A stretch of DNA of 58,026 bases from a virus. A program made the position numbers and the translations under genes. The DNA lies in IMG/VR virus record IMGVR_UViG_3300003323_001276, positions 1-58,026 of that record; one strand, 5' to 3'. The notes under the pieces were generated by a model. It was not told the origin of the DNA and did not search any database. It saw nothing but the letters and a program-made list of their open reading frames with translations. How positions within the stretch are numbered: the first letter of the stretch is position 1; every line of letters starts with the position of its first letter. Shown here in pieces: positions 81-25,997 of the stretch.

Positions 81-170
81 TCAAAGTAAGTGGATGATAG
101 TAAGTTATGGAAATGAAGTCAAGGAATCAATTGGGTTGAACTGTTAAACGTTCTTGGTTATATTCAGGTT

Positions 171-254
171 GATAATTTGTGTAAACTTATTGTCGTTTCT
201 TAATTATATTGTTTCATCCCGCCCTTTAAGAACGTTTGCAGGCGGGTTTTTTTT
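171..254 (+). ncRNA. Candidate small RNA 1 of the tandem array
   Basis: Promoter TTGAAC (136-141), 17-nt spacer, TATATT (159-164), predicted start near 171. The RNA has an AT-rich body and ends in a terminator: CCCGCC (218-223) pairs with GGCGGG (241-246), followed by eight T (247-254). No reading frame with a ribosome site is visible. Predicted length is about 84 nt. It heads a four-unit array of the same design. Confidence 0.6.
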
Positions 255-289
255 ATTGCGGGTATTGAAGATAAGTGTTATTGTTCTTG

Positions 290-376
290 TGCCTAAAAAG
301 GCAAAATTAGTTATTATTTTAACGTAAAGTTCATCCCGCTGGTGTAGTCAACTAAGTTCAAAAGCGGGTTTTTTTT
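290..376 (+). ncRNA. Candidate small RNA 2 of the tandem array
   Basis: The -35 TTGCGG (256-261) starts in the tail of the preceding terminator; a 17-nt spacer leads to TATTGT (279-284). The predicted start falls at the hairpin GCCTAAAAAGGC (291-302). An AU-rich linker containing TTATTATTTT (311-320) follows, then terminator CCCGCT (335-340)/AGCGGG (363-368) with eight T. Promoter and 5' hairpin resemble those of unit 3, indicating duplication of whole sRNA genes. The linker stretch is complementary over 10 nt to the leader at 42181-42190. Confidence 0.65.
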
Positions 377-411
377 ATTGCGTGCAATGTGATGTGATGG
401 TATTGTTCTTA

Positions 412-499
412 TGCCTTCGGGCAAGCTTTTAGATATTTATAAATTTTATTATTCTTTGGAAAAATGCATCCCGCCACCCTCTCAGGGGCGGGTTTTTTT
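412..499 (+). ncRNA. Candidate small RNA 3 of the tandem array
   Basis: Promoter TTGCGT (378-383), 17-nt spacer, TATTGT (401-406), followed by TTCTT as in unit 2. A UUCG-type tetraloop hairpin TGCC-TTCG-GGCA (412-423) sits at the predicted 5' end. The linker is very AU-rich and includes TTTTATTATT. Terminator CCCGCC (470-475)/GGCGGG (487-492) is followed by seven T. Length is about 88 nt and no ORF is visible. Confidence 0.65.
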
Positions 500-535
500 A
501 TTGATAGAATGAAAGTGAAATGGTAATGAGTGGGT

Positions 536-609
536 GGAATTTATGATAATTCCTTTATTTTAAAGTCATCACCCGCCGTTCATTCATAACTTTGTAGGCG
601 GGTTTTTTT
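536..609 (+). ncRNA. Candidate small RNA 4 of the tandem array
   Basis: Possible promoter TTGATA (501-506), 17-nt spacer, TAATGA (524-529; a weak -10). A perfect hairpin GGAATT/AATTCC (536-541/548-553) begins at the predicted start. The linker holds TCCTTTATT (551-559), an anti-Shine-Dalgarno-like stretch complementary to the leader of the capsid-region gene (42189-42197). Terminator CCCGCC (572-577)/GGCGGG (597-602) is followed by seven T. About 74 nt. Confidence 0.6.
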
Positions 610-711
610 ATTCCCATTATCGACCTACGCTGCTGGCGCACTTTAGTATTGATTCATACACAGATGCATGAGATATAGGCATATTACATGTGAATATTCA
701 TTGGGCTAAAA

Positions 712-949: not shown

Positions 950-1411
950 ATGAAGAATCAAGTTCAAGACAAGTTCTTACAAGAAAATTTTTTGCATCGT
1001 ATCGAAATATTTTCTATTAAACCTTATGTTAATTCTGATAGTTCGTCTGAGGGAAATGATCACGATAAGTACTTACTATCTTACAAGTACCGTAACCCCT
1101 TTTATAAAGACAATTATTTTTTTAATGCGTTGTTGAATAAATCTAATCTTGAATTCGAAACTGCATTTGAATTGCAAAGCTTCATCGAGTATATTTCAAA
1201 ACATTTTTATCACAACTGTAGTACTGAGGAATTTGCTTTTAGCAAGGATGGTAAAGTTATACTAGATAGTCAGCATAAGCTTTACATAACAATAAAGTGC
1301 AACGAGCTAAACTCAATGAAGTTTGGCGATTGTTTGAATAAGTTTTTTCATATTCGTGACGACGCTGTAACACTTTCGATCAGCCCTCGTTATTGTTACA
1401 AGCCTTTATAA
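950..1411 (+). CDS. Hypothetical small protein (paralogue of the 1889-2314 product)
   Basis: 153 aa, unrecognised family. It aligns along most of its length with the product of 1889-2314: both open with a His-Arg-Ile motif, share LDSQHKL/FGSDHKL-type blocks and a conserved acidic block before a C-terminal Tyr-Lys-Pro-Leu. The sequence looks soluble and beta-rich, with no signal peptide or membrane segment. Start ATG follows AGAAAGG at a good distance. It is the first gene of the long operon behind the 889-917 promoter, a position typical of early host-takeover or anti-defence functions, but nothing in the sequence proves such a role. Confidence 0.8.
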   Translation: MKNQVQDKFLQENFLHRIEIFSIKPYVNSDSSSEGNDHDKYLLSYKYRNPFYKDNYFFNALLNKSNLEFETAFELQSFIEYISKHFYHNCSTEEFAFSKDGKVILDSQHKLYITIKCNELNSMKFGDCLNKFFHIRDDAVTLSISPRYCYKPL

Positions 1412-1432
1412 CCAACGGATAGGAGATTTATT

Positions 1433-1867
1433 ATGAGATTTGGAATCAAAAGAAACCCAGTAGAGATTGTTGTAAAAATTGAATCAATCACACAGACGCA
1501 TTTGTCCTCGCTAGTTTATGGCGAGGTATCAGAGAAAGCGTTTAATGTAGTCAATCTTTCGTACTACGCCCCCAACTCAATTGTACGCAACGAATACACA
1601 GTGCTTGCACCTGCTAATGAAACTGCTACATGGCTTGCAATGGATTTGTACGGATTGCTTCATGGAATGTCTGCCAATCACGATGGTGATTTTGACTATG
1701 AAGATTGGTTGTTGTTTGAGGGTGACAAAAGCTTGATAGCTAATGGGTTTAAGTTGCTAATCATCAATGAATGCGAGCATATAAACTTTGATTTGTTTGC
1801 TGAACAGTTGAAGGAACATATCGCTTGTGAAAATCTAGTGTTAATACAGACAACTGAAGCTGCATAA
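1433..1867 (+). CDS. Hypothetical small protein
   Basis: 144 aa, no recognised family. It has the same general plan as its neighbours: an N-terminal beta-type segment (VVKIESIT), a central helix, and a C-terminal segment with INFDLFAEQLKEHI that resembles the equivalent helix in the 2807-3268 product. It may therefore be a very diverged member of the same family. The 21-nt gap upstream holds the conserved block AACCAACGGATAGGAG, which joins the ACCAACG motif to the Shine-Dalgarno site. The same block precedes the next three genes. Confidence 0.8.
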   Translation: MRFGIKRNPVEIVVKIESITQTHLSSLVYGEVSEKAFNVVNLSYYAPNSIVRNEYTVLAPANETATWLAMDLYGLLHGMSANHDGDFDYEDWLLFEGDKSLIANGFKLLIINECEHINFDLFAEQLKEHIACENLVLIQTTEAA

Positions 1868-1888
1868 CCAACGGAAGGGAGAAGTATT

Positions 1889-2314
1889 ATGACGATTAGA
1901 CCGCCAGTGAAGTACCTTCATCGCATTAAAATATTGAAGATAAAGCCGTATACTTACCTTGGCTTTAAACCAGCAGAACAAACTGCTAATAAATGTTTGG
2001 TAGAATATGAATACACAGACCCTTTGTATAATGATACTTACGGTTATTCTATCTTGGTAAAGAAAGATAATATTGAATTAGGTGTAGCAAGGGATATGCG
2101 AAACTGTATCGAGGGTGTTTCTTATAGCGATGAATTTGTAACTTATAATAATGATAAGCTTGTTTTTGGTAGCGATCATAAGCTTTGGATAGGAATTAAA
2201 GCTAAGCCACTTAATGCAATAGTTTTTGGTGACTTAATAGAAGAGTTGTTTTGTGTTGAAGATGACGCTGTAACAATTTCTATCACCCCTGATTATTATT
2301 ATAAACCCTTATAA
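1889..2314 (+). CDS. Hypothetical small protein (paralogue of the 950-1411 product)
   Basis: 141 aa, unrecognised. Clear paralogue of the first operon gene: shared HRIKI start, SDHKLWIGIKA block, FGDLIEELF helix and C-terminal DDAVTISITP...YYKPL. It is separated from its paralogue by one unrelated-looking gene, so the array probably grew by block duplication. Upstream block AACCAACGGAAGGGAG provides the ribosome site. No catalytic motif is visible. Confidence 0.8.
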   Translation: MTIRPPVKYLHRIKILKIKPYTYLGFKPAEQTANKCLVEYEYTDPLYNDTYGYSILVKKDNIELGVARDMRNCIEGVSYSDEFVTYNNDKLVFGSDHKLWIGIKAKPLNAIVFGDLIEELFCVEDDAVTISITPDYYYKPL

Positions 2315-2335
2315 CCAACGGAAAGGATAAATATT

Positions 2336-2785
2336 ATGACAAATAAAGCATCGAAAAAAGATTTGCGAAAGATGTCAATCACTCTAGATCTTAAGAATGG
2401 CGATAATTCCAATGAAGTTATTGTTTGGATACACACCGAGGGTTTGCAAAGTGGGTGCAATGGTAGTAATAGGAGTCATGAGGAGACCAGGAATAAATAC
2501 GTTATTGAGGATATCTCTTTTAGGATTGATAAGGATTGCGGAGCAGGTGAATTTTGCAAGAAGCTAATGGATGCAATAGTTCCTGTGTTATCCGAAAACA
2601 TATACCCTTATGGCTTAAGGTATATGCTGGACTCTGAGCTTAAACGAATTAAGTTTTTCGCTCACTGGCGTATAAAGCCTGAATTTTTATTTGAGTTAAT
2701 CAGCTATTTTTCAGTTAGATCTTCAGAGCTTAAACATGTAGAAAGAGACTTTGCGTATCCATGGGTACTCAAGGTGACGAATTAA
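2336..2785 (+). CDS. Hypothetical small protein
   Basis: 149 aa, unrecognised, with no obvious motif. It contains one short Gly/Ser/Asn-rich loop near residues 38-48 and a helix-rich C-terminal half (EFLFELISYFSVRSSELKHV). Upstream block AACCAACGGAAAGGA is nearly identical to those before genes 1433, 1889 and 2807. It appears soluble. Translation is likely coupled within the operon because gaps here are about 21 nt. Confidence 0.75.
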   Translation: MTNKASKKDLRKMSITLDLKNGDNSNEVIVWIHTEGLQSGCNGSNRSHEETRNKYVIEDISFRIDKDCGAGEFCKKLMDAIVPVLSENIYPYGLRYMLDSELKRIKFFAHWRIKPEFLFELISYFSVRSSELKHVERDFAYPWVLKVTN

Positions 2786-2806
2786 CCAACGAATAGGAGA
2801 ATTATT

Positions 2807-3268
2807 ATGACATTTGATGTAAAGGTAACGATAGAATCTGTAAAGGATGCGGTGCATTCAGAAGAATGGGTAAAATGGTGTGAAGTTAGTGGCAATATTA
2901 AAATATTTGAGGAGGGTATTAACAATAGGTTTGCTTTTGATGTTAACCAAGAGTTTCTTAATCAAGGCATAACCCAGGGTATTTGTACATTGTTAACAGA
3001 ATTATCAACGAGAAGTTATTTGCAATCGGGCATAGATTGGTTTGCTTACAACTATAAGGTTGGTGCTGATACTAAGTACACAATTCCCAACGAAGCATTT
3101 TTAGAGATTGAAATAGATACTCAAGACATAGATTTTTCATCCTTTGCCCAAGAATTCTTTAAGAAGGTTAGGCTTTTTAATCTAAGCGTTCATGTATCTG
3201 ATGAAGTGCAGGTAAAGAATATGGAAGATTGTTTTTACAAACCAATCATAGTGAACGCAAGGGGGTAG
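2807..3268 (+). CDS. Hypothetical small protein with Tyr-Lys-Pro motif
   Basis: 153 aa, unrecognised. A diverged relative of the 950/1889 pair is suggested by its N-terminal strand (KVTIESV), the EIEIDTQDIDFSSFAQEFF segment and the FYKPI motif close to the C-terminus. It is preceded by AACCAACGAATAGGAG. Its stop is two bases from the next start, suggesting translational coupling. Confidence 0.75.
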   Translation: MTFDVKVTIESVKDAVHSEEWVKWCEVSGNIKIFEEGINNRFAFDVNQEFLNQGITQGICTLLTELSTRSYLQSGIDWFAYNYKVGADTKYTIPNEAFLEIEIDTQDIDFSSFAQEFFKKVRLFNLSVHVSDEVQVKNMEDCFYKPIIVNARG

Positions 3269-3270
3269 TT

Positions 3271-3687
3271 ATGGAATACAGCACACTAAATATGAAACTC
3301 AGCACATTAAAGTGGGTAAATGCTGACCTAGAAGGGCTTGAGGAATCGGAAAGCGATGGCTATAGGATTCGTCTTAAGATCGAAGGGATAACCGAGTACA
3401 CGGGTTTAATCTCAAAGGCTTTGCTGTATAAAGAAATAGTCAATGAATTAGCGATTTGTTTGTATCATTTTATACTAAAGAATGAAGATTTGTGGGCTAA
3501 ATGGGAATTCTTTTACTTAGACCTTGGGGGGTATAAATTTTATCAGCAAATAGGGCTTGTTTTTAAAAATTACATTCAAGAAATCAATTCTTTAGAATTA
3601 TTTTTGGAATGCGCACGTCACGTTAATAGAGGGGATAGCCCTGGAATCAAAGCTATGACTGTAATTGATGAAACGACTAAACAATAG
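3271..3687 (+). CDS. Hypothetical small protein
   Basis: 138 aa, unrecognised. I choose the ATG at 3271, just after the upstream stop and behind AAGGGGG, rather than the longer frame that overlaps the previous gene by 40 bases. The protein is mixed alpha/beta with several Trp and Tyr residues (WAKWEFFYLDLGGYKFYQQIG). No signal peptide or membrane helix. Confidence 0.7.
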   Translation: MEYSTLNMKLSTLKWVNADLEGLEESESDGYRIRLKIEGITEYTGLISKALLYKEIVNELAICLYHFILKNEDLWAKWEFFYLDLGGYKFYQQIGLVFKNYIQEINSLELFLECARHVNRGDSPGIKAMTVIDETTKQ

Positions 3688-3699
3688 AAAGGATAGATT

Positions 3700-4650
3700 A
3701 TGACTAAACTTACCGATGAAGAAAGGGTATTTGTGGAATATTGGGATAAAATCAAAGACCATCCCGATATTAAAAATAGAGGGCTCAAAACTCCATTTCC
3801 AGATAAGTATTTTGTATTTTTTAAAGATACTATTTTAGACGACAGGGGGTACGAAGTCTCTGCTGGTAAACATTATAGCTTTAAAAAAATTGTAGACGTT
3901 TTAATTGATAAGAAAAACAACATACCAGATTATCTCTTTGAAGACAACCTAGGTAGAGTAAGATACTCATATAAAGTATTAACTGAAGGTGATTTTAAAG
4001 CAAAGCTTATGACTCATGGGGCGCGAAATCAGAACGTTCTTTGGAGTAACGAATGTTTATTTTATTATTTTTCGAACGAAGGTCATCGTACTAAGTTCAG
4101 ACAAAGATATTTGCACGTTAATAAAGCTGGCGAATGGAGTCTGGTATTTTTGCCAGATGTTTATGAAAAATATAAAACGGATTGGGAAAGATATCGTGCA
4201 TGGTTTTTTAATTCTAGGAAAATTAAATATTTTAATGTAACTAATTGGTGGGAAAAAATTTGTAAAAAAAATGAACCACTTTATGATTTAGTATCAAAAT
4301 GTGATCCGCTTGCTTTTCTTGAGTCGTTCTTATATGAAAAAAACCCTAACGCAAATCTAAAATCAAGCAAAGATGATAGGCTTGAATTTGCTAAACATAT
4401 TGAAGAAAAACTTAGAATTATGCAGACGAAGGATACTCAACCGATTGAGTATCGCTTAGCTTGCGTAATAGCCGAAAATAATCCAGAAGCTTTTGATGTA
4501 GAATCGAATGAAGAAGGGTTAAAAGTGTTTAAGATTAAGACGGGATTGCAATTTTATATGGGGCAATGCAATAAAAAGAAAATAAGCTTTGAAAAATTGA
4601 GGGAATATATTTCAGGTGAATTATATTTTTGCCCATCAAATCTTAAGTAA
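3700..4650 (+). CDS. Hypothetical protein, 316 aa
   Basis: 316 aa, larger than its neighbours and unrecognised. It is rich in Lys and aromatic residues, with clusters such as NWWEKICKKNEPLYDLV around residue 182. No nuclease, methyltransferase or ATPase signature is visible. Base composition is more AT-rich than the flanking genes, hinting at separate acquisition. Ribosome site AAAGGA lies 7 bases before the ATG. A frame inside it on the same strand (4016-4240) is a shadow. Confidence 0.75.
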   Translation: MTKLTDEERVFVEYWDKIKDHPDIKNRGLKTPFPDKYFVFFKDTILDDRGYEVSAGKHYSFKKIVDVLIDKKNNIPDYLFEDNLGRVRYSYKVLTEGDFKAKLMTHGARNQNVLWSNECLFYYFSNEGHRTKFRQRYLHVNKAGEWSLVFLPDVYEKYKTDWERYRAWFFNSRKIKYFNVTNWWEKICKKNEPLYDLVSKCDPLAFLESFLYEKNPNANLKSSKDDRLEFAKHIEEKLRIMQTKDTQPIEYRLACVIAENNPEAFDVESNEEGLKVFKIKTGLQFYMGQCNKKKISFEKLREYISGELYFCPSNLK

Positions 4651-4684
4651 TGAAAACAAACCAACCAAAACATAGGAGAAAATT

Positions 4685-5170
4685 ATGACTACAGAAACTA
4701 CAAAACCAAACCTTTATACGATCGATGTTAAGTTAGACTTTCCAGAAGTCGTGGATGAGTTAGAAACTGAACTTAGCTATACAATTGAAGTAACAACACC
4801 CTCTAAAAGGTTTTCGTTTGAGGATGTCGTTAAATCTGAATCGCTTTATTACGATGCGGATGGTGATTTTTATGATGATTTATACGAACAGCTTGGAGGG
4901 GGTATTCGGAAAGCTAAAGAGATGGCAGACGCAACGGGTGCAGAGCTTCGACACATGAAAGTTTACTTTCATTGGAAGGGTATAGAATCGCCACAAATAT
5001 GGAATATGTTTGCTGGATTTTGGAATTATGTACAATATGTTGGCGAGCTATCGGAAGAAAGTGCATCAACTGGGTTTATGTATATTTCCGATAACTACCC
5101 ATTAATTATTGATCGTGCAAGCGGCAGCTATGTTTATGCTGATAGCCACTACAAACCAACGGAGGACTAA
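4685..5170 (+). CDS. Hypothetical acidic small protein with Tyr-Lys-Pro C-terminus
   Basis: 161 aa, strongly acidic, unrecognised. It ends in SHYKPTED, recalling the YKP motif of the first operon genes, and has an N-terminal strand IDVKLDF. This suggests it belongs to the same loose small-protein family. The ribosome site is ATAGGAG. Acidic small early proteins in phages can be DNA mimics that block host enzymes; that is only a possibility here. Confidence 0.75.
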   Translation: MTTETTKPNLYTIDVKLDFPEVVDELETELSYTIEVTTPSKRFSFEDVVKSESLYYDADGDFYDDLYEQLGGGIRKAKEMADATGAELRHMKVYFHWKGIESPQIWNMFAGFWNYVQYVGELSEESASTGFMYISDNYPLIIDRASGSYVYADSHYKPTED

Positions 5171-5175
5171 AATAT

Positions 5176-5736
5176 ATGAATGATACGCTGTCAAAAGCCG
5201 AGCTCCAAAAGGAGCTTGGTTGCGAGCCAGAAAAAAAACAACCTTTGACAAAGGAGCTTTATACTCTCGTTGTCGAAATTGGAGATCCTAAAGTAATCTG
5301 TGAAGATAAAGACAGTATGTTTATGAATATCTATAATGTTGAATTGCAGAGGTGGGTTTACGATGGTGAAGGTATGGAAGTCTATGATGAGTATGATTGG
5401 ACTGAATATCCTGTTTACGAACCACGCATAACTCCTTATACCCTTTCGCCACTCCAATTCTTTTTTGGGATAAAGAATTTTTTAATACCCGATGAAAGCG
5501 ATTCTTTTAGCTGGGGTGGGATGTATAAAATTGAGGATTGTGTGTACTATATGGTAATAAAGTTTTCACCTGCGGAGGGTCGCGAAAGACTGATAGAGCG
5601 ACTCATAAATTCTAAGTATAAACTCTTTGTAAAAGGAAATCCAAAATCATTGGATAACGAAAAAGATAGCTATTATTTTTCAGATAAATTTGACCTTGAA
5701 GAAGCTTGGGATAGCGAAAACAACTGTTGGAAATGA
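5176..5736 (+). CDS. Hypothetical acidic protein
   Basis: 186 aa, acidic, unrecognised, with many Tyr and Trp residues. It starts 5 bases after the previous stop; the GGAGG that serves it lies inside the end of the upstream gene and overlaps an ACCAACGG copy (5155-5162). No motif, signal peptide or membrane segment is visible. Confidence 0.75.
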   Translation: MNDTLSKAELQKELGCEPEKKQPLTKELYTLVVEIGDPKVICEDKDSMFMNIYNVELQRWVYDGEGMEVYDEYDWTEYPVYEPRITPYTLSPLQFFFGIKNFLIPDESDSFSWGGMYKIEDCVYYMVIKFSPAEGRERLIERLINSKYKLFVKGNPKSLDNEKDSYYFSDKFDLEEAWDSENNCWK

Positions 5737-5747
5737 GGATATGAGCC

Positions 5748-6161
5748 ATGCAGAATACTGTTTATTATACGATAACTTTAAAACATGTGGTTGAAGCTAA
5801 TTGCAACAACATAGAAACTGGAAAAACTTATTCCAAAGTTAGTAATGATTATATATCGGTTAAGATAGAAACCTGTGATCCTATGTATACGGAACATATG
5901 CCTGAATGCGGATATGCATTAAGGGTTGACGAACTTTTGCCGCTCAATATAGCTAAGTTGTTTTTGGATATAGATTCAGAAAGCTACACAGCCCCAAAGG
6001 ATGATAACTGGAGCATAGATGAGAATGGGCAGGAAATTTTCTATATGCCAGAACATTTTAGAATAATCATCGAAAACCAGCTAGCAGAAGGATTTGATGG
6101 GATTGATGTTGAAAAACTTTACAACGCGTTTCGACATAGGCAGCCACTGGAGGAGGAATAA
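5748..6161 (+). CDS. Hypothetical small protein
   Basis: 137 aa, acidic, unrecognised. It opens with a beta-type segment (VYYTITLKHVVE) like several neighbours in this array, and contains a central helix and an acidic C-terminus. GAGG lies upstream of the ATG. The stop codon is one base from the next start. A remote relation to the other small operon proteins is suggested only by size and layout. Confidence 0.7.
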   Translation: MQNTVYYTITLKHVVEANCNNIETGKTYSKVSNDYISVKIETCDPMYTEHMPECGYALRVDELLPLNIAKLFLDIDSESYTAPKDDNWSIDENGQEIFYMPEHFRIIIENQLAEGFDGIDVEKLYNAFRHRQPLEEE

Positions 6162-6162
6162 C

Positions 6163-6582
6163 ATGCAAGAAAAGGATGTTTACTTAAAGATAGAAATAAG
6201 TCAGGGATTTTCCCCAGATGATAAGGAATTGTACAGCGATTCGCACCTTTGGGTAGAATTTTATATACAAAAATTCAATTTGCCAAAGAAAGAATTGCCT
6301 AAAAAACTTATACATCAACTATGGGAAAACTACCTTTTGCATGAGGACAACCCTGAGGAATGGTTGGCGCATGATATAGCGGACTTTTTGGGGGATTACT
6401 TGGAAGAAGACCCTAAGATATGCTCTCGCTATTTGATAAAACCAAACGTTAGATTGTTTTTTTATAATTATCTTAGGCATGATTACATGCGGTTTTCAGG
6501 AGACAAGTTCCTTTGGAGTTTTAACAAAAAATGTGACACCGAAGAGGAGGCATTGCAAAAGATTCGCTTATATATTGATTAG
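6163..6582 (+). CDS. Hypothetical small protein
   Basis: 139 aa, unrecognised. The start at 6163 is chosen because GGAGGAGG lies 8 bases upstream and the previous gene stops at 6161; a longer frame from 6094 would overlap that gene. The start MQEKDVYLKIEIS again has the N-terminal strand seen across the array. The centre contains WLAHDIADFLGDYLEEDP, closely similar to WLAEIVRDFLGDN in the next gene, so the two are probably paralogues. Confidence 0.75.
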   Translation: MQEKDVYLKIEISQGFSPDDKELYSDSHLWVEFYIQKFNLPKKELPKKLIHQLWENYLLHEDNPEEWLAHDIADFLGDYLEEDPKICSRYLIKPNVRLFFYNYLRHDYMRFSGDKFLWSFNKKCDTEEEALQKIRLYID

Positions 6583-6603
6583 TAATAATAAAAAGGACTT
6601 ACC

Positions 6604-7140
6604 ATGTCGGATGAAAAAAGACTAATAAAGATGACGATATTACATAATATTACAGTAGATAATGGTTATGAGGGTGAGGAAGGACAAACTTTTGAAGATT
6701 ACAAAATAAAAGGTAATTTATTAATAAGTCGCCCTTTCGAATCAGCTCCCAAAGATGATAGGAAACTTTTAATTAAAATTTATGCGTACGCCTATAAGGA
6801 AGAGGGATGGACATTAGAGGGATGGTCGGGAAAAATAATAGAAGAGGTGGTGTTAAGAAAATTGGAGTTTGAATGGGAGGTAGACAAACGAATGTGTGAA
6901 CCGCACAAGTGGTTGGCTGAAATTGTTCGTGATTTTTTGGGCGATAACATTTGTGTCAAAAGTTGGAGAGTGGAATATTTTGGGTCGATTGGAACATTTT
7001 TGTCGAACGTGGATTTTACATTTGAAAACGAGCTTGAAATGTTTGTTGACTCCTTTGATTTTTTAAGGTTTTGCAACTGTTTTAAAAAAATAGATGAGAA
7101 GCTGACGAAGCAATATGTAAGGAGGTACAGGATTGGATAA
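6604..7140 (+). CDS. Hypothetical protein (paralogue of the 6163-6582 product)
   Basis: 178 aa, unrecognised. It shares the helix KWLAEIVRDFLGD with the preceding gene (EWLAHDIADFLGD). The C-terminal third is aromatic-rich. Its last codons overlap a strong AAGGAGG site that serves the next small gene. Confidence 0.75.
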   Translation: MSDEKRLIKMTILHNITVDNGYEGEEGQTFEDYKIKGNLLISRPFESAPKDDRKLLIKIYAYAYKEEGWTLEGWSGKIIEEVVLRKLEFEWEVDKRMCEPHKWLAEIVRDFLGDNICVKSWRVEYFGSIGTFLSNVDFTFENELEMFVDSFDFLRFCNCFKKIDEKLTKQYVRRYRIG

Positions 7141-7270
7141 AGAGAGTTTTATTTTGTTTTGCAAGGCACTCCTTGCAGATCAAGAAATAAGATACGATCA
7201 CATAGATTGGGAAAAGTTTTACGAAGATTTTAAATCGGAAAGGTGGAAAAAAGATGACAAGAAGACGTGA
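7133..7270 (+). CDS. Hypothetical 45-aa protein, TTG start
   Basis: A short frame begins with TTG at 7133, 6 bases after a perfect AAGGAGG (7120-7126), overlaps the end of the upstream gene by 8 bases and the start of the next by 17. It encodes a mostly charged helix (LDKESFILFCKALLADQE at the start, Lys-rich end). It fills what would otherwise be the only gap in this stretch. TTG starts also occur at 8519. The strong ribosome site is the main evidence. Confidence 0.6.
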   Translation: MDKESFILFCKALLADQEIRYDHIDWEKFYEDFKSERWKKDDKKT

Positions 7271-8507
7271 TGCGGCAGAGATAACTAAGCAAACGCATGA
7301 ATTTAGAGAGTTTTTAGTGCGGGGAGGGGTTGAAAAAGCTTTTGATATCCCGCCCAAGATTGAGAAAATTTTTAAGGATGCGTACTTTGCATTAAAAAAA
7401 CAATCTTATACCGATCAGTATTGGTCGGTAGTGATTGGGGAATGGAAAATGGTATTAGAGTTTTTGCTTGAGGAGGAGACTCGCAGCCGAAGCAAAGGCT
7501 ATAAAACAGTTTTTTTTAAACAAGCACACAAGTATCTTATGAATATGAAGGGTGGTCGTTGTGGAGATTCTGAATATGCCTCCTCATTGCAAATTGATGA
7601 AGAGCGTAGGGAGTTTCGCGAATTTTTACAAGGTCGCGGTATTAGCTCTTTTTTCGCCATACCCGATGATTTTTTGGAAATACTTTGCACGGCTTTTCAT
7701 GAGATTAGATATGACGTTTGCCATAATTGGAAAGAGACACTTCAAACATGGCAAAAAATAGTTGCGTTATTGTCGGTGGTGAACACGTCAAATAAAAATG
7801 TAAAAGAATTTAGGGATGAGTTTAAAGAGCCCCCCATCGATCGGAGCTATTATACTTACGATGACAACAACGCTTGTAGGGCAAGCCCAAGAAAAAAGAT
7901 AATGGAAATCTTGGGTAATTATAAAACGAAATGGCGTGCTATATCATCTACTAACGATAAAGAAGAGGGCTTGGAACATGTTTCTGTATGGGATCCAACA
8001 CCAACGGAGGTTGTAAACGATGAACCAAAACGCTGTCCATATACCTTTAAAAATGACAAGCGATTTTCAAAAGAATTGCAGGCAACTAACGATACAACGG
8101 GGGAAAAGTGGTGGTTTCAAGTTGAGAGCTTGCGAGAATCCCTTTTGCAAAGTAAATCACACGTAATTTCTAATCTTGCTAAGTGTGGAATGAAAGACGA
8201 CCCCTCTTTAAGGGATTGTATCAATGCTTATGCAATTTTAGAATTACTTAAGAGTGATAACAAAGATCATGGCTTTACGCAACTTATTGACGGTACATAC
8301 GATATGGATAAAAAAGCGATTATATTTATCAATGTCGATAATAAAACAGTCAACTGGGAAGGGCTGTTTGAACGATTAGGATATTTTTTAAACGGCACTC
8401 TTAGGAAATATATACAAACCGAAAACTACATATGCATGAATGGGTTGGTCATCATCAAGACCCTGCCGTATTGTATCATAATTCGTAAAAATACAAGGGG
8501 CGCATAG
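7254..8507 (+). CDS. Hypothetical protein with tandem EFREFL repeats
   Basis: 417 aa, unrecognised. Two tandem copies of an approximately 70-residue helical module are visible (about residues 11-80 and 117-185). Each opens with EFREFL, followed by a Gly, a Phe-x-Ile-Pro motif and spaced Trp residues before a hydrophobic helix. The region after about 200 is different and Lys/Asp-rich. An ACCAACGGAGG copy lies inside the gene at 8000. No catalytic motif is apparent; the repeated helical module suggests a binding role. Confidence 0.75.
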   Translation: MTRRRDAAEITKQTHEFREFLVRGGVEKAFDIPPKIEKIFKDAYFALKKQSYTDQYWSVVIGEWKMVLEFLLEEETRSRSKGYKTVFFKQAHKYLMNMKGGRCGDSEYASSLQIDEERREFREFLQGRGISSFFAIPDDFLEILCTAFHEIRYDVCHNWKETLQTWQKIVALLSVVNTSNKNVKEFRDEFKEPPIDRSYYTYDDNNACRASPRKKIMEILGNYKTKWRAISSTNDKEEGLEHVSVWDPTPTEVVNDEPKRCPYTFKNDKRFSKELQATNDTTGEKWWFQVESLRESLLQSKSHVISNLAKCGMKDDPSLRDCINAYAILELLKSDNKDHGFTQLIDGTYDMDKKAIIFINVDNKTVNWEGLFERLGYFLNGTLRKYIQTENYICMNGLVIIKTLPYCIIIRKNTRGA

Positions 8508-8518
8508 GAGGTAAGGAG

Positions 8519-9085
8519 TTGAAAAAATCTAAAGAAAAACGGACATGGGAAGTGGTTTATAGCATACGTGATTGGTATTTATTTATACCGGGTGCAAAAA
8601 AGCCTATAGACCTTCTTTGGAAATCGTCAGAGGCTACGAAAAGGTACTTCCTTTTTAAGGATGATAAATTTTTAGGGCGGCTCAAAGATGCTAAAGATAC
8701 CCTAGAGTATGTTTCATATTTTGATATAGCAAAATGCTTGCTTGAAAAGTTATGTAGCAAAAGGGTGGTTAAAAAAGGAAGATTACTCCATAAAAGGCAA
8801 TTGATTTGGATAGATGACCCAGAAATTAAAACCATCAAGATTCGTTGTGATGACTATTGTCTCAATATGCATAAAGTTTTGAGGGCGTTTGAGTATATCG
8901 TAGGAGATAGGATGAGGATGGAGCATTTTTGTTATGAAGGGCTGTTATTTGATAACTTTGATCAACTGGAGGGTTTTCTTTTACTTGAGAATGGTTTGGA
9001 AATAACTTCGGACTGGGATTCTGGGGTACGACAACAAAACTATATTAGATTTACAAAAGGAGAAAATTATGGAACTGGAAAATGA
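8519..9085 (+). CDS. Hypothetical protein, YIRFTKGE family member 1
   Basis: 188 aa, TTG start preceded by AGGAGG and AAGGAG. Unrecognised. Its last 35 residues (ENGLEI...NYIRFTKGE) match the end of the next gene's product (KNGLEI...NYIRFTKGE), and the middle parts align weakly, so the two are tandem paralogues. Basic N-terminus; no membrane segment. It overlaps the next gene by 17 bases, consistent with coupled translation. Confidence 0.75.
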   Translation: MKKSKEKRTWEVVYSIRDWYLFIPGAKKPIDLLWKSSEATKRYFLFKDDKFLGRLKDAKDTLEYVSYFDIAKCLLEKLCSKRVVKKGRLLHKRQLIWIDDPEIKTIKIRCDDYCLNMHKVLRAFEYIVGDRMRMEHFCYEGLLFDNFDQLEGFLLLENGLEITSDWDSGVRQQNYIRFTKGENYGTGK

Positions 9086-9605
9086 AAACGAGAAGCGTTT
9101 TGCTTTTTATACTATTCAAGATAAGCTTTTTATCATTGATAGGGATTCACAAAAAGAACCTGCCATAATGGTAGAGCTCGCAGAAGTTGTAAGAACGCTT
9201 CACAGTGACCACCCTCTTTATCAAAACCCATTTCATTACCAATCAAGAATTGCCTACGCAGATCTTGCTAGGGCGATCATACGTGGTTTGTCAGGTAGTT
9301 ATTATGCTAAAAATGATGTGCTAGAATACAGACACAATGAACTCAGGATACCCAATAAAAATATCACTTCGATAACTCTTGATTGTATTTCAGATCATAT
9401 TCATTTGAGGCTTTTATACGAGGCGTTGCTATTTATTACCGATACGAGAAGCACATATAATGCAGGCATTGGCAAAGAGGGGAGCGCAAAATGTAAATGT
9501 AAAAATGGACTGGAAATAATGTTCGCATGCAACAAATTTAAAGGGGTGAATTATATTCGCTTTACAAAAGGAGAGCCAGAGGAAGAGGTAAAGGAAAATG
9601 ACTGA
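9069..9605 (+). CDS. Hypothetical protein, YIRFTKGE family member 2
   Basis: 178 aa, unrecognised. Tandem paralogue of the 8519-9085 product, with the same C-terminal NGLEI and NYIRFTKGE blocks and a similar central LLYEALLF versus CYEGLLF segment. The ATG sits inside the end of the upstream gene behind AAAAGGAG. The stop overlaps the following start. Confidence 0.75.
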   Translation: MELENENEKRFAFYTIQDKLFIIDRDSQKEPAIMVELAEVVRTLHSDHPLYQNPFHYQSRIAYADLARAIIRGLSGSYYAKNDVLEYRHNELRIPNKNITSITLDCISDHIHLRLLYEALLFITDTRSTYNAGIGKEGSAKCKCKNGLEIMFACNKFKGVNYIRFTKGEPEEEVKEND

Positions 9606-10125
9606 AATTGAACTTGAACTAACGTGCGGGCATTATGCGATTTCGTGCATAACTAAAAATAACCTTAATAGTGGTTGTTCTTTAGGCGGTTCCATGTGGC
9701 GCACTCGTGTGAGAATGGAAGGTAAGCTTGGACGCTTAGATTACATTACAATGTGCGAAGTAATGTTTCAGGAATTGATTTTTGCTGAATCACTCAAACA
9801 TGATCACAGAGTGTTTACCTTTGATTCCGTGCCACTAATGTATACAGGAAGGGAATATATTTTAAAAGAGGATACGACTATTCGAGTCACCTGCAAGCAG
9901 CCTGACAAAAAGGAGATGCTTTTGGTGACCGATAAAACCGTTGAGATTGATTTGTTCGAAGTTTTTAAGGCTTTGGCATATTTGGTGAATAAAGATGGTG
10001 AGATTCAAGCTTACCGTTCTAATATAAGCTTTTTCCAAAAGGGAGGCGTGCGGGTGACATTTGAGAGAAACTGGGAGGATTCTGTCATCACTTTTCAAAC
10101 CATTTCAGAAAAAAGCGACGCGTAA
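9598..10125 (+). CDS. Hypothetical protein, possible third family member
   Basis: 175 aa, unrecognised. Overlaps the previous gene by 8 bases. The segment IDLFEVFKALAYLV and the ending with GVRVTFERNW are arranged like the corresponding parts of the two upstream paralogues (NMHKVLRAFEYIV, RFTKGE), so it is probably a diverged third copy. A gap of 120 bases follows, with a possible minor internal promoter but no clear motif. Confidence 0.7.
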   Translation: MTEIELELTCGHYAISCITKNNLNSGCSLGGSMWRTRVRMEGKLGRLDYITMCEVMFQELIFAESLKHDHRVFTFDSVPLMYTGREYILKEDTTIRVTCKQPDKKEMLLVTDKTVEIDLFEVFKALAYLVNKDGEIQAYRSNISFFQKGGVRVTFERNWEDSVITFQTISEKSDA

Positions 10126-10245
10126 GAAAAGGTTTGGGATGTTGGAAAGGGGAAAGTTTAAAACATTGAGGGGTTTTTAAGTAACACTCATATATCAATA
10201 AAGGAATAAAAAGATGAGTTAGTAACATTATTATAGGAGAACGAA

Positions 10246-10692
10246 GTGAAGGAATACATAAAATATAAAGACATAAATTTGGAGCGACTTTTAAAGGATA
10301 ATGCGGGCTGTAAAAGTTTTATAATCAGCTCTATTAAAATTGAAGAGGTCGAAGGTAAAAATTGGGTTAGATACTCGGTTTCAACCAATCCATATGATGA
10401 GGAGAGCAGATCGCGTTTGAAGTTTGATTATTTTACCAATCTTGAACCAACGGTTTATGGTTTTTATCGTGAATTTTGGGAAAAGGGGGTGATGTCGATT
10501 TCTATCTTAAACGACACGTGCAGAACCTTTTACGTGTTTTGTTTCGATAGGATAGGTGGAAAGTTTAACAAGTGGTTGTTTTTGAATTTTCTCAAAACTG
10601 AACTTGAAGAGCTTTCCCATGTATGGGTAGTTGATGAAAATTTGTTTATTGTGTCGCCGATGGGCGCAAAAATTGAAAGGAAAAAAAGATGA
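10246..10692 (+). CDS. Hypothetical protein, GTG start
   Basis: 148 aa, GTG start preceded by ATAGGAG. Unrecognised; basic and aromatic-rich. It carries an ACCAACGG copy at 10446. It overlaps the next ATG by 4 bases, so the two are probably translated together. No signal peptide or motif. Confidence 0.7.
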   Translation: MKEYIKYKDINLERLLKDNAGCKSFIISSIKIEEVEGKNWVRYSVSTNPYDEESRSRLKFDYFTNLEPTVYGFYREFWEKGVMSISILNDTCRTFYVFCFDRIGGKFNKWLFLNFLKTELEELSHVWVVDENLFIVSPMGAKIERKKR

Positions 10693-11333
10693 GACGTAAA
10701 ACTAGAAGAGAGTGGGTAGAAGAGGGTGCGGTTGTTGAATTTATTCCAACTACAGATCCAAAAGCTTTTTATGAAAAGGTGGCAAAGAGTTATTGCAAAG
10801 AAACAAAAATGTCTATTTTTAAAGAGCTTAACAAGATTACTAATGTTGTTTCTGAAAACCCTAACTTGTCAGTATTGATAGTAACAGTTATGGAAGCCAT
10901 GATGGATATGCGATATGGGGGAGAAGTTAAATATATGGTATGCAACGCGGAATATATGGGCAAGGCAACCACAACGTTCACCATTCATTCCTTTCCAGAG
11001 GGTGAAGAAAAGTATACCGATGAAGCTAAAGATAAAATAGCCGAAGAAGTCGGGAATAGACTTATGGAAACCACAATGGAGCATGATGAGATTATAGGCA
11101 ACACAGCCCTACCACCTTTAGTTGCAATGGTGGTTGAAGATATTGCAGAAGCTTTTAGAGATTTACATAACTTGTTCGACAAGAACGTGAAGCCCCAAGG
11201 CGATTCTGACAAACCTTTGGATAGATTGCTTTTGATAGGCATTAACGGAAAGTTATGCTTTAGGGAAATTTCATATGCGAACAAAGGGGATAGTCCAAAC
11301 GATGGATTTAGCCCAAAAGTAACATTCCACTAA
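10689..11333 (+). CDS. Hypothetical protein, FIPTTDP family member 1
   Basis: 214 aa, unrecognised. It is a tandem paralogue of the next gene: both share FIPTTDP near the start, a GEVKYM/NEVKYI block around residue 85, and a C-terminal LLLIGINGKLCF/LIVAINGKICI strand-loop-strand. A central acidic helix-rich region follows. No catalytic residues can be named. Ribosome site AAAGGAAA is in the end of the upstream gene. Confidence 0.75.
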   Translation: MRRKTRREWVEEGAVVEFIPTTDPKAFYEKVAKSYCKETKMSIFKELNKITNVVSENPNLSVLIVTVMEAMMDMRYGGEVKYMVCNAEYMGKATTTFTIHSFPEGEEKYTDEAKDKIAEEVGNRLMETTMEHDEIIGNTALPPLVAMVVEDIAEAFRDLHNLFDKNVKPQGDSDKPLDRLLLIGINGKLCFREISYANKGDSPNDGFSPKVTFH

Positions 11334-11347
11334 TTAAGGAGAACCCA

Positions 11348-11947
11348 ATGAGAGATTATATTTTAGAAAATAAGTGTATAACTTTTATACCAACGACAGA
11401 TCCTGCGGCATTTTGGACAAAGTTAAAGCATGTAGTTTTTTTGGACGATAAAGAACGACTCACTAATACAATGAATGAAGCTGTTAAACCTTATCTCATG
11501 GAGGAAAATAATGAATCCGTGCTTTTTGTAAACATATTGGAGGCAGTTTCCGATCAAAAATATGACAACGAAGTAAAATATATAATGGGTGCATTATGTT
11601 TTGAAGGAATTCTTGGAAGACCTTTTTCGATCCTTCTTTTTCCTACAGTTTCTGAGCGAGAGTATACACCTGAATTTAGGGCAAGTTTAGCCATTGGGGA
11701 TGAGGGGTGTCGGATTGCAGATCAAGGATATGAAAAAGAAGCCGAAGATCAAAATACAATAGCGTTGTTTCCCATAGGTCAATTTGAAGATTTGTTTAAA
11801 CATATTCACAATTATATTCAATCCTCTATAAGTAAAACTCACCAAGAGGCTAAGCAGCGTTTGATCGTAGCGATCAATGGGAAAATTTGTATAAATAGGG
11901 TGTCTGATTTTTCAGGGGAACGTAAAACAAACCTACTTAAGGAGTAA
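11348..11947 (+). CDS. Hypothetical protein, FIPTTDP family member 2
   Basis: 199 aa, unrecognised, paralogue of the 10689-11333 product by the motifs FIPTTDP, SVLFVNILEA versus SVLIVTVMEA, NEVKYI and the terminal AINGKI block. Start behind AAGGAG. The tandem pair adds to the pattern of local duplication across this operon. Confidence 0.75.
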   Translation: MRDYILENKCITFIPTTDPAAFWTKLKHVVFLDDKERLTNTMNEAVKPYLMEENNESVLFVNILEAVSDQKYDNEVKYIMGALCFEGILGRPFSILLFPTVSEREYTPEFRASLAIGDEGCRIADQGYEKEAEDQNTIALFPIGQFEDLFKHIHNYIQSSISKTHQEAKQRLIVAINGKICINRVSDFSGERKTNLLKE

Positions 11948-11950
11948 AAT

Positions 11951-12691
11951 GTGAGAATAGACGGATATCTTGATGATCCATGGCTGATGCGCCTGATAAG
12001 AAATGGAAAGGAATGGAACACTATAGGGATAGTAATAGAAAACATTTACGACCTATGGATGAAAGAATCATCTACAATTGATGGAAAAAACCCAAAACTT
12101 AAGCATGTTGTGGATAAAAAATTTATTGATGAAGATGGACAAGTATTCACGAAACATGGAAAAACATTCACAAAAGAAATACGAAAAGAAAGAACAAAGC
12201 TTAGAATGTTTTACGAATGCGGCTTTGGGCATAAAACATACAATTATAATATAATTGGAGTTCCTTCTGATCTTTATGAATTACACATACCAAGGGAATT
12301 ATTGATCCTCAAAGGAATACTTTTCCAGACATGTTTTTTGCAGACTATTGGACATGTGTATTCAAAGTATGGGGGTACTTCAAACGAAGATAAGGACTTA
12401 GTCGTTATGTTGATTGATAACACACGCACGTGCTTAGATTTTGAGAAGCTAATGGAAATATATGCTGAATACGATAAGCGAATTCACGTGATGACCACCC
12501 TCAACGTAAGGGAGGATGGGAATGGTAATAAAATTATGGTTAGAATACCCGCAGAAGTAATTAGGGATTACGAGGAAGAATGGGAAGGTTTAAAAGGGGT
12601 TGAGCATATTAACAATATACTCAATAAACCCTTTAAAAAAGAGGACGCTGAAAGCAATTGTTGCGACAGTGTTGAGACAATTAACAAATAG
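11951..12691 (+). CDS. Hypothetical protein, GTG start
   Basis: 246 aa, unrecognised. GTG at 11951 follows AAGGAG at 6 bases. Contains a conserved-looking stretch YNIIGVPSDLYELHIPRELL and a basic segment near residues 60-80. No membrane segment. It is preceded by two bases after the previous stop region and followed by a 38-base gap. Confidence 0.7.
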   Translation: MRIDGYLDDPWLMRLIRNGKEWNTIGIVIENIYDLWMKESSTIDGKNPKLKHVVDKKFIDEDGQVFTKHGKTFTKEIRKERTKLRMFYECGFGHKTYNYNIIGVPSDLYELHIPRELLILKGILFQTCFLQTIGHVYSKYGGTSNEDKDLVVMLIDNTRTCLDFEKLMEIYAEYDKRIHVMTTLNVREDGNGNKIMVRIPAEVIRDYEEEWEGLKGVEHINNILNKPFKKEDAESNCCDSVETINK

Positions 12692-12729
12692 TGCAGGAGG
12701 TGTCTGCACAATTAAAGAAAGGATAAATT

Positions 12730-13224
12730 ATGAAGAGAGAGTATACAAAAAAAGGAATGGAGTATGATTGGGAAAAAATATCATCCTTTGATACAGGGGT
12801 GCCGTTTTCAATCGAAAATTTCATGGGAAGCATTTCATATCACCATACGGGAAATATAACACGCGATATGTATGCAAAGATTAGGACGCTTTTTTACGAA
12901 CTTGCGATAGAGGATAACTTAAGAATGGGGTTTTTAAAGGGTGTTACGCTTCAAATATGCAACCTTCGCATGAGCGAAGAGAGCATTAAGATGTTGGAGA
13001 GCAAAAAGAATGCACTACTGACCAAGTTAGTTAAAATATTTATGTTGCCCCAATTGAGCTTCATGGAGTTTGCATCAGACAACCCCCATCTCTACAAACG
13101 CCCTTGTGCTGACGATATTCTAGATACGCGACTAATAAAGGGATTCATGAATGAGTGTGTACCAACGATAGATGGGTTGTATGCGATGTTTGGAGATGTA
13201 GTTGAATTAGAAAGGACTGCCTAG
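12730..13224 (+). CDS. Hypothetical protein
   Basis: 164 aa, unrecognised, mainly helical (LRMSEESIKMLESKKNALL). An ACCAACG copy lies near its 3' end at 13161. The ribosome site is AAAGGA. The stop is two bases from the next gene. Confidence 0.7.
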   Translation: MKREYTKKGMEYDWEKISSFDTGVPFSIENFMGSISYHHTGNITRDMYAKIRTLFYELAIEDNLRMGFLKGVTLQICNLRMSEESIKMLESKKNALLTKLVKIFMLPQLSFMEFASDNPHLYKRPCADDILDTRLIKGFMNECVPTIDGLYAMFGDVVELERTA

Positions 13225-13225
13225 T

Positions 13226-13945
13226 ATGAAAGAAGAAATTGATATTCAAATTGAATCCGAAGACGAAGAAGGTGTAGTGGATGAGTCGCTACCAGAAACA
13301 ATTCAGAAACTAATTCGTGAGCGAAAGGTTTCAAAACTGGATGGTGCTGCATTGCAGAATTCTGACATACCCGTTGAAGATGTGATTTCGTACTATGAAA
13401 AGCATCCGCTGCAGCTTTACAATTTGTTCGCTTTTGTGAGGTGGCATGACGGCATCTCGTGTACAAAATGTGGGTGTGAAACAGTAACCGCGGACATTTC
13501 TTTTGTAAGCAAAGAGTATCCTTTTTTTAGATGCGTAGGGGATGTCGATTCACCATCACATAGATTTAGCGTATTTACTGACTCTATCTTTGAGAAGGCT
13601 CGTTTTGACCTTGTGCCATTGGTGAACTGGGTGAAACTTTTTGTTTTTTACCTCAATCACCCAAATAAGAGTGGCGCAACTATTAAAGAGATGGTTGAGG
13701 TAATAGGTTCGAAAAATCTTACGTTCTTCTATCAGACAGTAACTGGAAGAAGTATAGCAAGAGTCCTTTTGATTGCCAGAAAATCTAAGGCGTTTGGGAA
13801 GAATTTTCAGATCAGAAACCTCTCACACCTCGTAAAAGTTTTGAAATGGATTATGTCGTTCAATCGAGATGGAACGCTAATCGTTTCAAAAATGACCTCA
13901 TTGTTGTTTGACAAAAAGAGCAAGAAAGGAAAAAAGGATGACTAA
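13226..13945 (+). CDS. Zinc-ribbon protein derived from IS1595-type transposase N-terminus
   Basis: 239 aa. Residues about 78-150 resemble the N-terminal part of IS1595/ISXO2-type transposases: a zinc ribbon with CTKCG, a third Cys in FFRC and His in SHRFSV, then the characteristic FSV-x-T-x-S-IFEKAR segment and a Trp-led helix-turn-helix-like region (NWVKLFVFYL...ATIKEMVEVIG). The catalytic DDE domain that should follow is absent; the protein ends in a Lys-rich tail. I infer a domesticated DNA-binding protein, perhaps a regulator of the phage or host. It overlaps the next gene by 8 bases. Family membership is judged by eye. Confidence 0.6.
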   Translation: MKEEIDIQIESEDEEGVVDESLPETIQKLIRERKVSKLDGAALQNSDIPVEDVISYYEKHPLQLYNLFAFVRWHDGISCTKCGCETVTADISFVSKEYPFFRCVGDVDSPSHRFSVFTDSIFEKARFDLVPLVNWVKLFVFYLNHPNKSGATIKEMVEVIGSKNLTFFYQTVTGRSIARVLLIARKSKAFGKNFQIRNLSHLVKVLKWIMSFNRDGTLIVSKMTSLLFDKKSKKGKKDD

Positions 13946-14672
13946 GGTTATTGAAAAAAAAGAGTTTTTGCCCTATGCGGAGGCGCAAGCCATCGTAGCT
14001 CAAAAGAACTTCAAAAAAGTAGAAGAATTTAGGATGTGGAAAGATCGACCTGCAAACATACCTTTTAATCCTAATGAATTTTATTTCAAGAGGGGGTGGA
14101 ATGGGTGGGAGAATTGGCTAGGTATACGAAGGCTTTCAAAATTCGTTTCCTATGAAGCAGCTAAGGCATGGGCTAAGAAAAATTGTATCAATACAAATAT
14201 TGAATGGAAAAAGCTTCGACCAAAATATATGCCAAAGTTTCCCGATCTTACATACAAGGGTAAAGGATGGGTGAATTGGTATGAATTTTTAGGCAAAACC
14301 TCCATAGGGCAGTTTTTACCCTTTGAAGAAGCTCGTGAGATAATAAGGGCTATGAAATTAAAATCTTACACTGAGTTTCTTCAGCTTAAAAATCGCCCTA
14401 AGAATATTCCATCGTGTCCAAACATAACCTACAAAGACAAGGGTTGGGTAGATGGGTATGATTGGGTGGGAATTCCAAAAAAAAGGAATTATAAGGAATT
14501 TTTACCTTACGAGGAGGCGGAGAAGGTAGTTCAAGCATTGAAGCTAAAAACGATACTTGAGTTTCAGGCATCCGTTAAGGCTTTAAAGGGTATCCCATTT
14601 CGTCCAGATTACTACTACAAAGACAAGGGTTGGCTTGGGTGGGGTAAATTTTTGGGTAGAGACAAGCATTAA
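13938..14672 (+). CDS. Protein of four Trp-rich INT_rpt-like repeats
   Basis: 244 aa consisting of four tandem repeats of about 58-60 residues. Each follows the scheme FLPYEEA..(V/I)(V/I)...LK....F......IP..P...YKDKGW..W..FLG. This matches the repeat found beside phage integrases and in many bacterial and algal proteins (INT_rpt type). The repeats probably bind nucleic acid, although no integrase catalytic domain is present. The start at 13938 is chosen for AGGAAAAAAGG just upstream. It is followed by two further genes of the same set (14690 and 14879). Confidence 0.65.
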   Translation: MTKVIEKKEFLPYAEAQAIVAQKNFKKVEEFRMWKDRPANIPFNPNEFYFKRGWNGWENWLGIRRLSKFVSYEAAKAWAKKNCINTNIEWKKLRPKYMPKFPDLTYKGKGWVNWYEFLGKTSIGQFLPFEEAREIIRAMKLKSYTEFLQLKNRPKNIPSCPNITYKDKGWVDGYDWVGIPKKRNYKEFLPYEEAEKVVQALKLKTILEFQASVKALKGIPFRPDYYYKDKGWLGWGKFLGRDKH

Positions 14673-14689
14673 ACATAAGGAGTGGAATT

Positions 14690-14869
14690 ATGAAATTTTT
14701 TGAAAAACTTAAGCATTTAATTCGTTCTCGAGGGGTTGGTGAAATAACATTAAAACCTGGGGAAAGCCTAAATTTAATAGTAATGGAGGAAAGTGAGTTT
14801 GAGCAATTAGTAAACAAACGAGTAAACGAGGCGTTGGAAAAAGAACGCCAAAAAGTCAATGTAAAATAG
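14690..14869 (+). CDS. 59-aa stand-alone copy of the next gene's N-terminus
   Basis: A short frame with ATG behind AAGGAG. Its product starts MKFFEKLKHLI and ends with an acidic/basic helix VNKRVNEALEKERQK; the next gene starts MKFLNKLKKII and contains MHVDEALAKERS at the matching place. It therefore looks like a complete duplication of just the N-terminal domain of the 618-aa protein. It may be an oligomerisation or regulatory partner. A small antisense frame covering it is a shadow. Confidence 0.65.
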   Translation: MKFFEKLKHLIRSRGVGEITLKPGESLNLIVMEESEFEQLVNKRVNEALEKERQKVNVK

Positions 14870-14878
14870 GAGTAAATT

Positions 14879-21188: not shown

Positions 21189-21217
21189 TTGACACCTTTT
21201 ACCCTCTAGGGTATATT
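21189..21217 (+). promoter_or_regulatory. Consensus-like sigma70 promoter
   Basis: TTGACA (21189-21194), exact 17-nt spacer, TATATT (21212-21217). This is the best promoter match in the window. No protein gene follows on this strand; only two terminator-ended small units lie downstream, so the product is probably RNA. Confidence 0.8.
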
Positions 21218-21223
21218 TAAGCG

Positions 21224-21276
21224 TGAAGTTTTAGATTTCATAATTTATCCTGACTTCCCCTCCTCGGAGGGGTTTT
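21224..21276 (+). ncRNA. Candidate 53-nt small RNA
   Basis: Starts behind the 21189-21217 promoter and ends at the hairpin CCCCTC-CTCG-GAGGGG (21257-21272) followed by four T. A weak 5' hairpin TGAA/TTCA is present. The short T run may allow read-through to the second terminator at 21382, giving a longer RNA of about 160 nt. Confidence 0.6.
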
Positions 21277-21309
21277 CAAAATTTAAAACTGATCATGTAT
21301 AATTTCATG

Positions 21310-21382
21310 ATACGAATCTCCTAACCAAATAAAGTTGGTAATACCGCGGAATTGAAACCTTTCTGACCAATTCCGCTTTTTT
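21310..21382 (+). ncRNA. Candidate 73-nt small RNA with two hairpins
   Basis: TATAAT (21298-21303), with TTCAAA 17 nt upstream, gives a start near 21310. The RNA carries hairpin ACCAA/TTGGT (21324-21339), then terminator GCGGAATTG (21346-21354)/CAATTCCGC (21368-21376) and six T. It ends 4 bases before the stop of the convergent tail-fibre gene, for which the stem can also act as a barrier. Confidence 0.6.
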
Positions 21383-21385
21383 ATT

Positions 21386-24392: not shown

Positions 24393-24455
24393 TTTAGTAC
24401 CTTTTTTATTGTTATTATTGATTTATTATACCGCTTAAAAGGCTCTAAAAACATA

Positions 24456-24546
24456 AAAAAAACCCCCTAATGTAAACATGAGCGGGGGCTGATAGTTAAT
24501 AAAAAAACAAAAGAAATTTATAATATCTTAAAAGGGAGCTAACCCT
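24456..24546 (-). ncRNA. Candidate small RNA, minus strand
   Basis: On the minus strand, TTGACT (24581-24576) is placed 15-17 nt before TATAAT/TAATCT near 24560. The 5' hairpin AGGG-TTAGCT-CCCT is at about 24545-24532. A U-rich linker with runs of T follows, then terminator CCCCC/GGGGG (24489-24485/24468-24464) and eight T (24463-24456). Layout as in the 130-612 array. The terminator lies upstream of the 24392 gene start. Confidence 0.55.
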
Positions 24547-24583
24547 GGTTAAAGATTATATATTTACTTTATTCCAGTCAATG

Positions 24584-24733: not shown

Positions 24734-24767
24734 TTAAATAGCATATTGGTTCTATTTTTACAATATT

Positions 24768-25866: not shown

Positions 25867-25871
25867 AAATT

Positions 25872-25961: not shown

Positions 25962-25997
25962 ATTTAATCGGCACACAGATTCTGATATATAAAGGTT

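Follow-up and report, generated by a model that had tools for sequence, protein, structure and literature searches.

We consider with moderate confidence, judging from sequence, that the array at positions 130-612 of the phage genome described here consists of four small-RNA (sRNA) genes in a row and is one cluster of a phage-wide set, whose RNAs would be transcribed by the host, would be stable, and would likely act on the host's Hfq-like chaperone, disturbing the regulation of host mRNAs. At three junctions, the layout, place and strand of such units are conserved between this phage and its close relative, whereas their sequence is not. The window, that is, the whole stretch of DNA analysed, is the complete record IMGVR_UViG_3300003323_001276 (58,026 nt), and all coordinates are given on that record.

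The window is a whole phage genome, which codes for the large terminase, the portal, structural proteins, an endolysin and a GroEL homologue. Its bases 1-25 are repeated at 58002-58026, and this 25-nt terminal repeat may reflect either an assembly broken at a conserved tRNA or the trace of an attachment site. The repeat falls within a tRNA-fMet-like gene (minus strand, 4-80), at the 3' end of that gene, in which CCA is encoded and the C1-A72 mismatch is present, but the anticodon stem is GGAGG/CCTCC. The sole close relative in the collections is IMGVR_UViG_3300037462_000746 (hereafter G001; 55.5 kb), whose terminase, portal and capsid protein are 70%, 73% and 77% identical to those of the window and whose gene order is mostly that of the window in reversed orientation. 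The G001 counterpart of the window's 807-aa gene continues into the early block, an arrangement in favour of joining the window's two ends. More distant kin are marine and freshwater phages of 50-65 kb, e.g. Pelagibacter HTVC027P and DSL-LC04, with portal identities of ca. 20-24%. In a DNA similarity search of phage records, the tRNA gave the only convincing match, and no match was obtained when bacterial genomes were searched with the capsid and portal proteins.

Several other features of the genome were recorded. About 25 co-directional early genes occupy 950-16735, and those tested had no Pfam or PHROG match; several of them look paralogous (e.g. those at 950 and 1889, and at 10689 and 11348). 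Repeats ending in KGWxxWxxFLG build the proteins of window 13908-16735 and of L020 14361-14996, and are also found in G001. A GroEL-like chaperonin gene lies at 18470-20251 of this 58-kb phage, and its product is 62% identical to that of G001 and ca. 30% identical to other phage GroELs; GroES genes are present in the annotated parts of the distant kin DSL-LC04, HTVC027P and Pag-Yong1. A second tRNA-like gene (41638-41709, minus strand; Rfam tRNA score of 32 bits), absent from G001, has an abnormal anticodon loop, reported as 'ttta' by ARAGORN.

The array is composed of the following units, the RNAs being predicted:

136-254, plus strand: unit 1; -35 TTGAAC (136-141), 17-nt spacer, -10 TATATT (159-164), RNA 171-254; 5' hairpin GATAAT/ATTGTC; terminator 218-254 with a 17-nt loop
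256-376, plus strand: unit 2; -35 TTGCGG (256-261), 17-nt spacer, extended -10 TATTGT (279-284), RNA 291-376; 5' hairpin GCCU/AGGC; terminator 335-376
378-499, plus strand: unit 3; -35 TTGCGT (378-383), 17-nt spacer, extended -10 TATTGT (401-406), RNA 413-499; 5' hairpin GCC-UUCG-GGC; terminator 470-499
501-609, plus strand: unit 4; -35 TTGATA (501-506), 17-nt spacer, extended -10 TAATGA (524-529), RNA 536-609; 5' hairpin GGAAUU/AAUUCC; terminator 571-609

All four head-to-tail units of promoter, hairpin and terminator described in a sequence-only reading of this DNA were recovered, each with -35 and -10 hexamers separated by 17 nt. The extended -10 (TGn) is present in units 2-4. The terminator stems are CCCGCC/GGCGGG in units 1, 3 and 4 and CCCGCT/AGCGGG in unit 2, followed by T tails of 8, 8, 7 and 7 nt in units 1 to 4. 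That reading held the hairpin at or near +1 to be clear in units 2-4, which is correct (the hairpin of unit 3 is short and has a UUCG tetraloop), but the hairpin of unit 1 also starts at its predicted +1. Likewise, it placed the -35 elements of units 2 and 3 in the tail of the preceding terminator, and the -35 of unit 4 proved to be positioned in this way too, directly after the tail. The absence of an ORF with a ribosome site holds across the array except for one 6-codon frame in unit 4, and no convincing small peptides were found in the units. From the end of unit 4 it is ca. 340 nt to the gene at 950, in front of which a separate promoter-like site is present (TTGACT-17-TATATT, 889-917).

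The terminators of the array are far beyond chance. Exactly four sites with a perfect GC-rich stem and T6 occur in 85-700, against a mean of 0.0005 and a maximum of 1 in 2000 local dinucleotide shuffles, and no such site appeared in 60 shuffles of the whole genome. A terminator scan limited to loops of 8 nt or less misses the array, whose loops are longer. On the other hand, the array promoters are significant only as a class, and those of units 2-4 are weak singly. When scored against shuffles with an E. coli sigma70 matrix, the promoters of units 1, 3 and 4 were within chance (p = 0.11, 0.96 and 0.63, respectively), and in unit 2 a different site outscored the named promoter (p = 0.18, same matrix). 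Over the 39 bases that run from the T tail to the 5' hairpin, units 2 and 3 agree at 26, a level reached by none of 20000 random pairs; the segment from -10 to +4 is almost identical and the spacer has diverged. The bodies of units 2 and 3, as well as units 1 and 4, showed no clear relationship. The proposal that entire sRNA genes had been duplicated thus stands for the promoter segment of units 2 and 3 alone, the RNA bodies not being demonstrably related.

Terminators were then listed in both phages with loops of up to 30 nt. In both genomes, such terminators occur in tandem, 100-150 nt apart, at several further junctions, giving ca. 14 units (six clusters) in the window and ca. 12 (five clusters) in G001. 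Most of the longer intergenic gaps of the window phage appear, from their sequence, to hold such rows. Upstream of each terminator, the order is promoter hexamers, a hairpin at or near the predicted first base and an AU-rich linker, and the terminator loop is usually 11-22 nt. The further clusters of the window are as follows:

21189-21385, plus strand: two units; TTGACA-17-TATATT with a short CCCCTCC/GGAGGGG hairpin and a weak T tail, then TTCAAA-17-TATAAT with a terminator at 21346-21385
24455-24760, minus strand: tandem units upstream of the gene for a 612-aa tail protein; terminators end near 24590 and 24461
25855-26092, plus strand: tandem units; predicted +1 hairpins GGTGTT/GACACC and AGAGTA/TACTCT; terminator loops of 20 and 22 nt
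34540-34765, minus strand: two tandem units; predicted RNAs 34728-34654 and 34614-34540
48868-49130, minus strand: two tandem units between the convergent tail and endolysin genes; predicted RNAs 49094-49020 and 48982-48868

The sequence-only reading had therefore seen one of at least six clusters, but its interpretation as small-RNA transcription units is still the best one, as the same plan recurs elsewhere in the genome and in G001.

The units were evaluated as a class. Promoter scores 5' of 30 such terminators from both phages gave a combined p of ca. 1e-6 against shuffles. When promoters were chosen blind to hairpins, a strong hairpin was found exactly at -10+7 in 8 of the 15 best (score of at least 7), while adjacent offsets had 4-5 hairpins and other offsets 0-2. 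Because promoter and hairpin were found independently, this phasing is the strongest evidence. In G001, the hairpins GAGCU-UAU-AGCUC and GAAGAU-UAA-AUCUUC both start exactly 7 nt after the -10. A strict joint scan of the two genomes returned 5 and 8 units (one G001 start being counted twice), against a shuffle mean of ca. 0.4 and a maximum of 2. The excess was smaller in a looser control with displaced hairpins, in which 5 compares with a mean of 1.5 (maximum 4) and 8 with a mean of 2.6 (one offset reaching 7). Many unit boundaries were placed by eye, and since the unit list was partly set in this manner, the combined p value for 5' folding (7e-9) is biased.

These results bear on the explanation that the array is a series of terminators only, with hexamers arising by chance, which would halt transcripts entering over the circular junction (58003 to 1) from the 807-aa gene. 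That the hexamers of units 2-4 are within chance when taken singly agrees with this, but the promoter enrichment at the class level, the phasing of hairpins to the predicted +1 and the retention of the segment from -10 to +4 in units 2 and 3 despite a diverged spacer do not, and we regard it as improbable. Its variant in which the terminators serve the tRNA side does not fit, as the tRNA at 4-80 is encoded on the minus strand, so that its transcription proceeds away from the array.

The comparison with G001 separates layout from sequence. Coding DNA of the two phages aligns at 66-77% up to or near the edges of three junctions, at 34.5-34.8, 48.9-49.2 and 20.3-21.4 kb of the window. At each of them, the window and G001 both carry a cluster, with the same relative strand (2/2, 2/3 and 2/3 units in window/G001, in that order), but the clusters themselves do not align, and no pair of RNA bodies across the phages exceeded the shuffle maximum. 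Unit bodies within one genome also differ; apart from units 2 and 3, their similarity is hardly beyond that of shuffles. Where the window has the reported array, the units of G001, at least two in number, lie on the opposite strand. This last observation, together with the lack of a GC-skew switch at the array and the similar clusters in five other places, speaks against a cis-acting role of the RNAs in DNA replication near the early/late junction, be it as primers or as origin transcripts. Such a role is very unlikely in our judgement, even though the array sits where the late and early blocks meet and no DNA polymerase, primase or other replication enzyme was recognised among the tested ORFs of the window.

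Searches beyond the two phages recovered little of the kind. In Rfam searches with gathering as well as relaxed thresholds, the units reached the gathering score of no family; the two tRNAs alone scored, and the best matches in the array were far below. A scan of IMG/VR for the tandem-terminator pattern gave ten matches, none of the same system, and essentially no tandem units were seen in the distant kin (ca. 60 marine loci, Pelagibacter HTVC027P, DSL-LC04, and Planktothrix and Caulobacter phages). When IMG/VR was scanned for the exact fusion of terminator and -35, 26 stretches were found, nearly all leading straight into protein genes. On an unrelated contig (L101 1505-1543, minus strand), a single terminator/promoter fusion is followed possibly by a short hairpin RNA and not by a protein gene.

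A fused terminator tail and -35 is thus a common phage device, and this is in keeping with the units being cassettes that join a terminator to a promoter, as in the PeSLs of T4-type phages; such cassettes would insulate gene blocks, drive early transcription and give short homologies for shuffling, with the RNAs as by-products. PeSLs precede protein genes and share sequence. The units resemble them in combining a sigma70-type promoter with an intrinsic, stem-loop terminator in multiple copies at gene junctions. The clusters of the two phages occupy junctions of gene blocks, several of which are convergent, and the unit number varies between the window and G001. PeSLs are described as promoter and stem-loop elements that mediate shuffling (PMC4503421). 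However, where the promoter of such fusions elsewhere nearly always feeds a protein gene, here another terminator follows within ca. 60-115 nt and the promoter-to-terminator units enclose no gene; units 1-3, instead of driving an adjacent early gene, each lead to another terminator-promoter unit. Nor do the units share a conserved sequence as cassettes would, the promoters of units 2 and 3 being the exception, so that homology for recombination is almost absent, the units differing even inside one genome. Besides, a boundary element needs neither a hairpin at +1 nor two to four repeats. We therefore hold the cassette explanation to be rather unlikely, though it is the main rival of the sRNA reading.

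The sRNA reading finds partial parallels among known systems. Tandem sibling sRNAs such as OmrA/OmrB and the LhrC copies are arranged head to tail, each with its own promoter and terminator, and share seeds and targets. The unit plan is alike, but what is common here is the layout and not the sequence, as no body or seed is shared between units and a clear relationship is confined to the promoters of units 2 and 3. Hfq-binding sRNAs of bacteria and phages (VpdS of phage VP882, lambda PreS and OOP) are, like the predicted RNAs of the units, short, with their own promoter, an AU-rich single strand ahead of the terminator hairpin and a tail of at least 7 U (PMC12197685; PMC5558911). Phage sRNAs have been reviewed as single genes with defined targets, without mention of tandem arrays (PMC12197685). 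In contrast to these, the units form rows of 2-4 at several junctions, have the hairpin fixed at +1, are unconserved in sequence and match nothing in Rfam.

The predicted RNAs of ca. 60-115 nt have a 5'-terminal hairpin, an AU-rich linker, a terminator and a U tail, which is at least 7 nt in 17 of 23 units including all four of the array. In the four array units, the 20 nt before the terminator hairpin are 75-85% A+U and 40-60% U, in a genome that is itself AT-rich. U-rich tails also belong to ordinary terminators, and a hairpin at the extreme 5' end slows 5'-end-dependent decay. The minimal Hfq-binding module combines a terminator hairpin with a U-rich stretch and a poly(U) tail of 7 nt or longer (PMC5558911), and the U tails and AU-rich linkers of the predicted RNAs agree with this module. 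We infer that the units are transcribed and that their RNAs are stable, bind a chaperone and have host targets. In the mechanism that we consider most likely, host RNA polymerase with the main sigma factor would initiate each RNA, whose first base would open a hairpin protecting the 5' end against decay. Next would come a linker that is AU-rich and single-stranded, and a terminator with a large single-stranded loop; termination would take place in a run of 6-9 U, whose DNA would often supply the -35 for the following gene. The RNAs would then load onto the host's Hfq-like chaperone and disturb host mRNA regulation, by pairing through linkers and loops whose sequence changes fast, by competing collectively for the chaperone, or by both.

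Pairing of the RNAs to the phage's own translation starts showed no excess (35 segments, combined p = 0.51), and regulation of the phage's own genes is therefore not favoured. The turnover of sequence at constant form fits either fast-evolving seeds directed at the host or collective competition for the chaperone. We suggest tentatively, as a possibility short of an even chance, that the lineage keeps more than a dozen sRNAs conserved in layout and free in sequence, whose function would be set by form (5' hairpin, AU linker, large-loop terminator and U tail), for instance in the collective capture of the host's RNA chaperone or decay machinery, or as fast-evolving guides against changing host mRNAs.

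Phage sRNAs have so far been known mostly as single genes, and the unit rows of these two phages suggest an unexplored set of viral small RNAs. If the reading is true, the lineage would offer compact, clearly bounded units, open to direct tests of transcription and chaperone binding. Intergenic rows kept by place and strand and not by sequence would then suggest that the phage takes over the host's post-transcriptional control collectively, by means of RNA.
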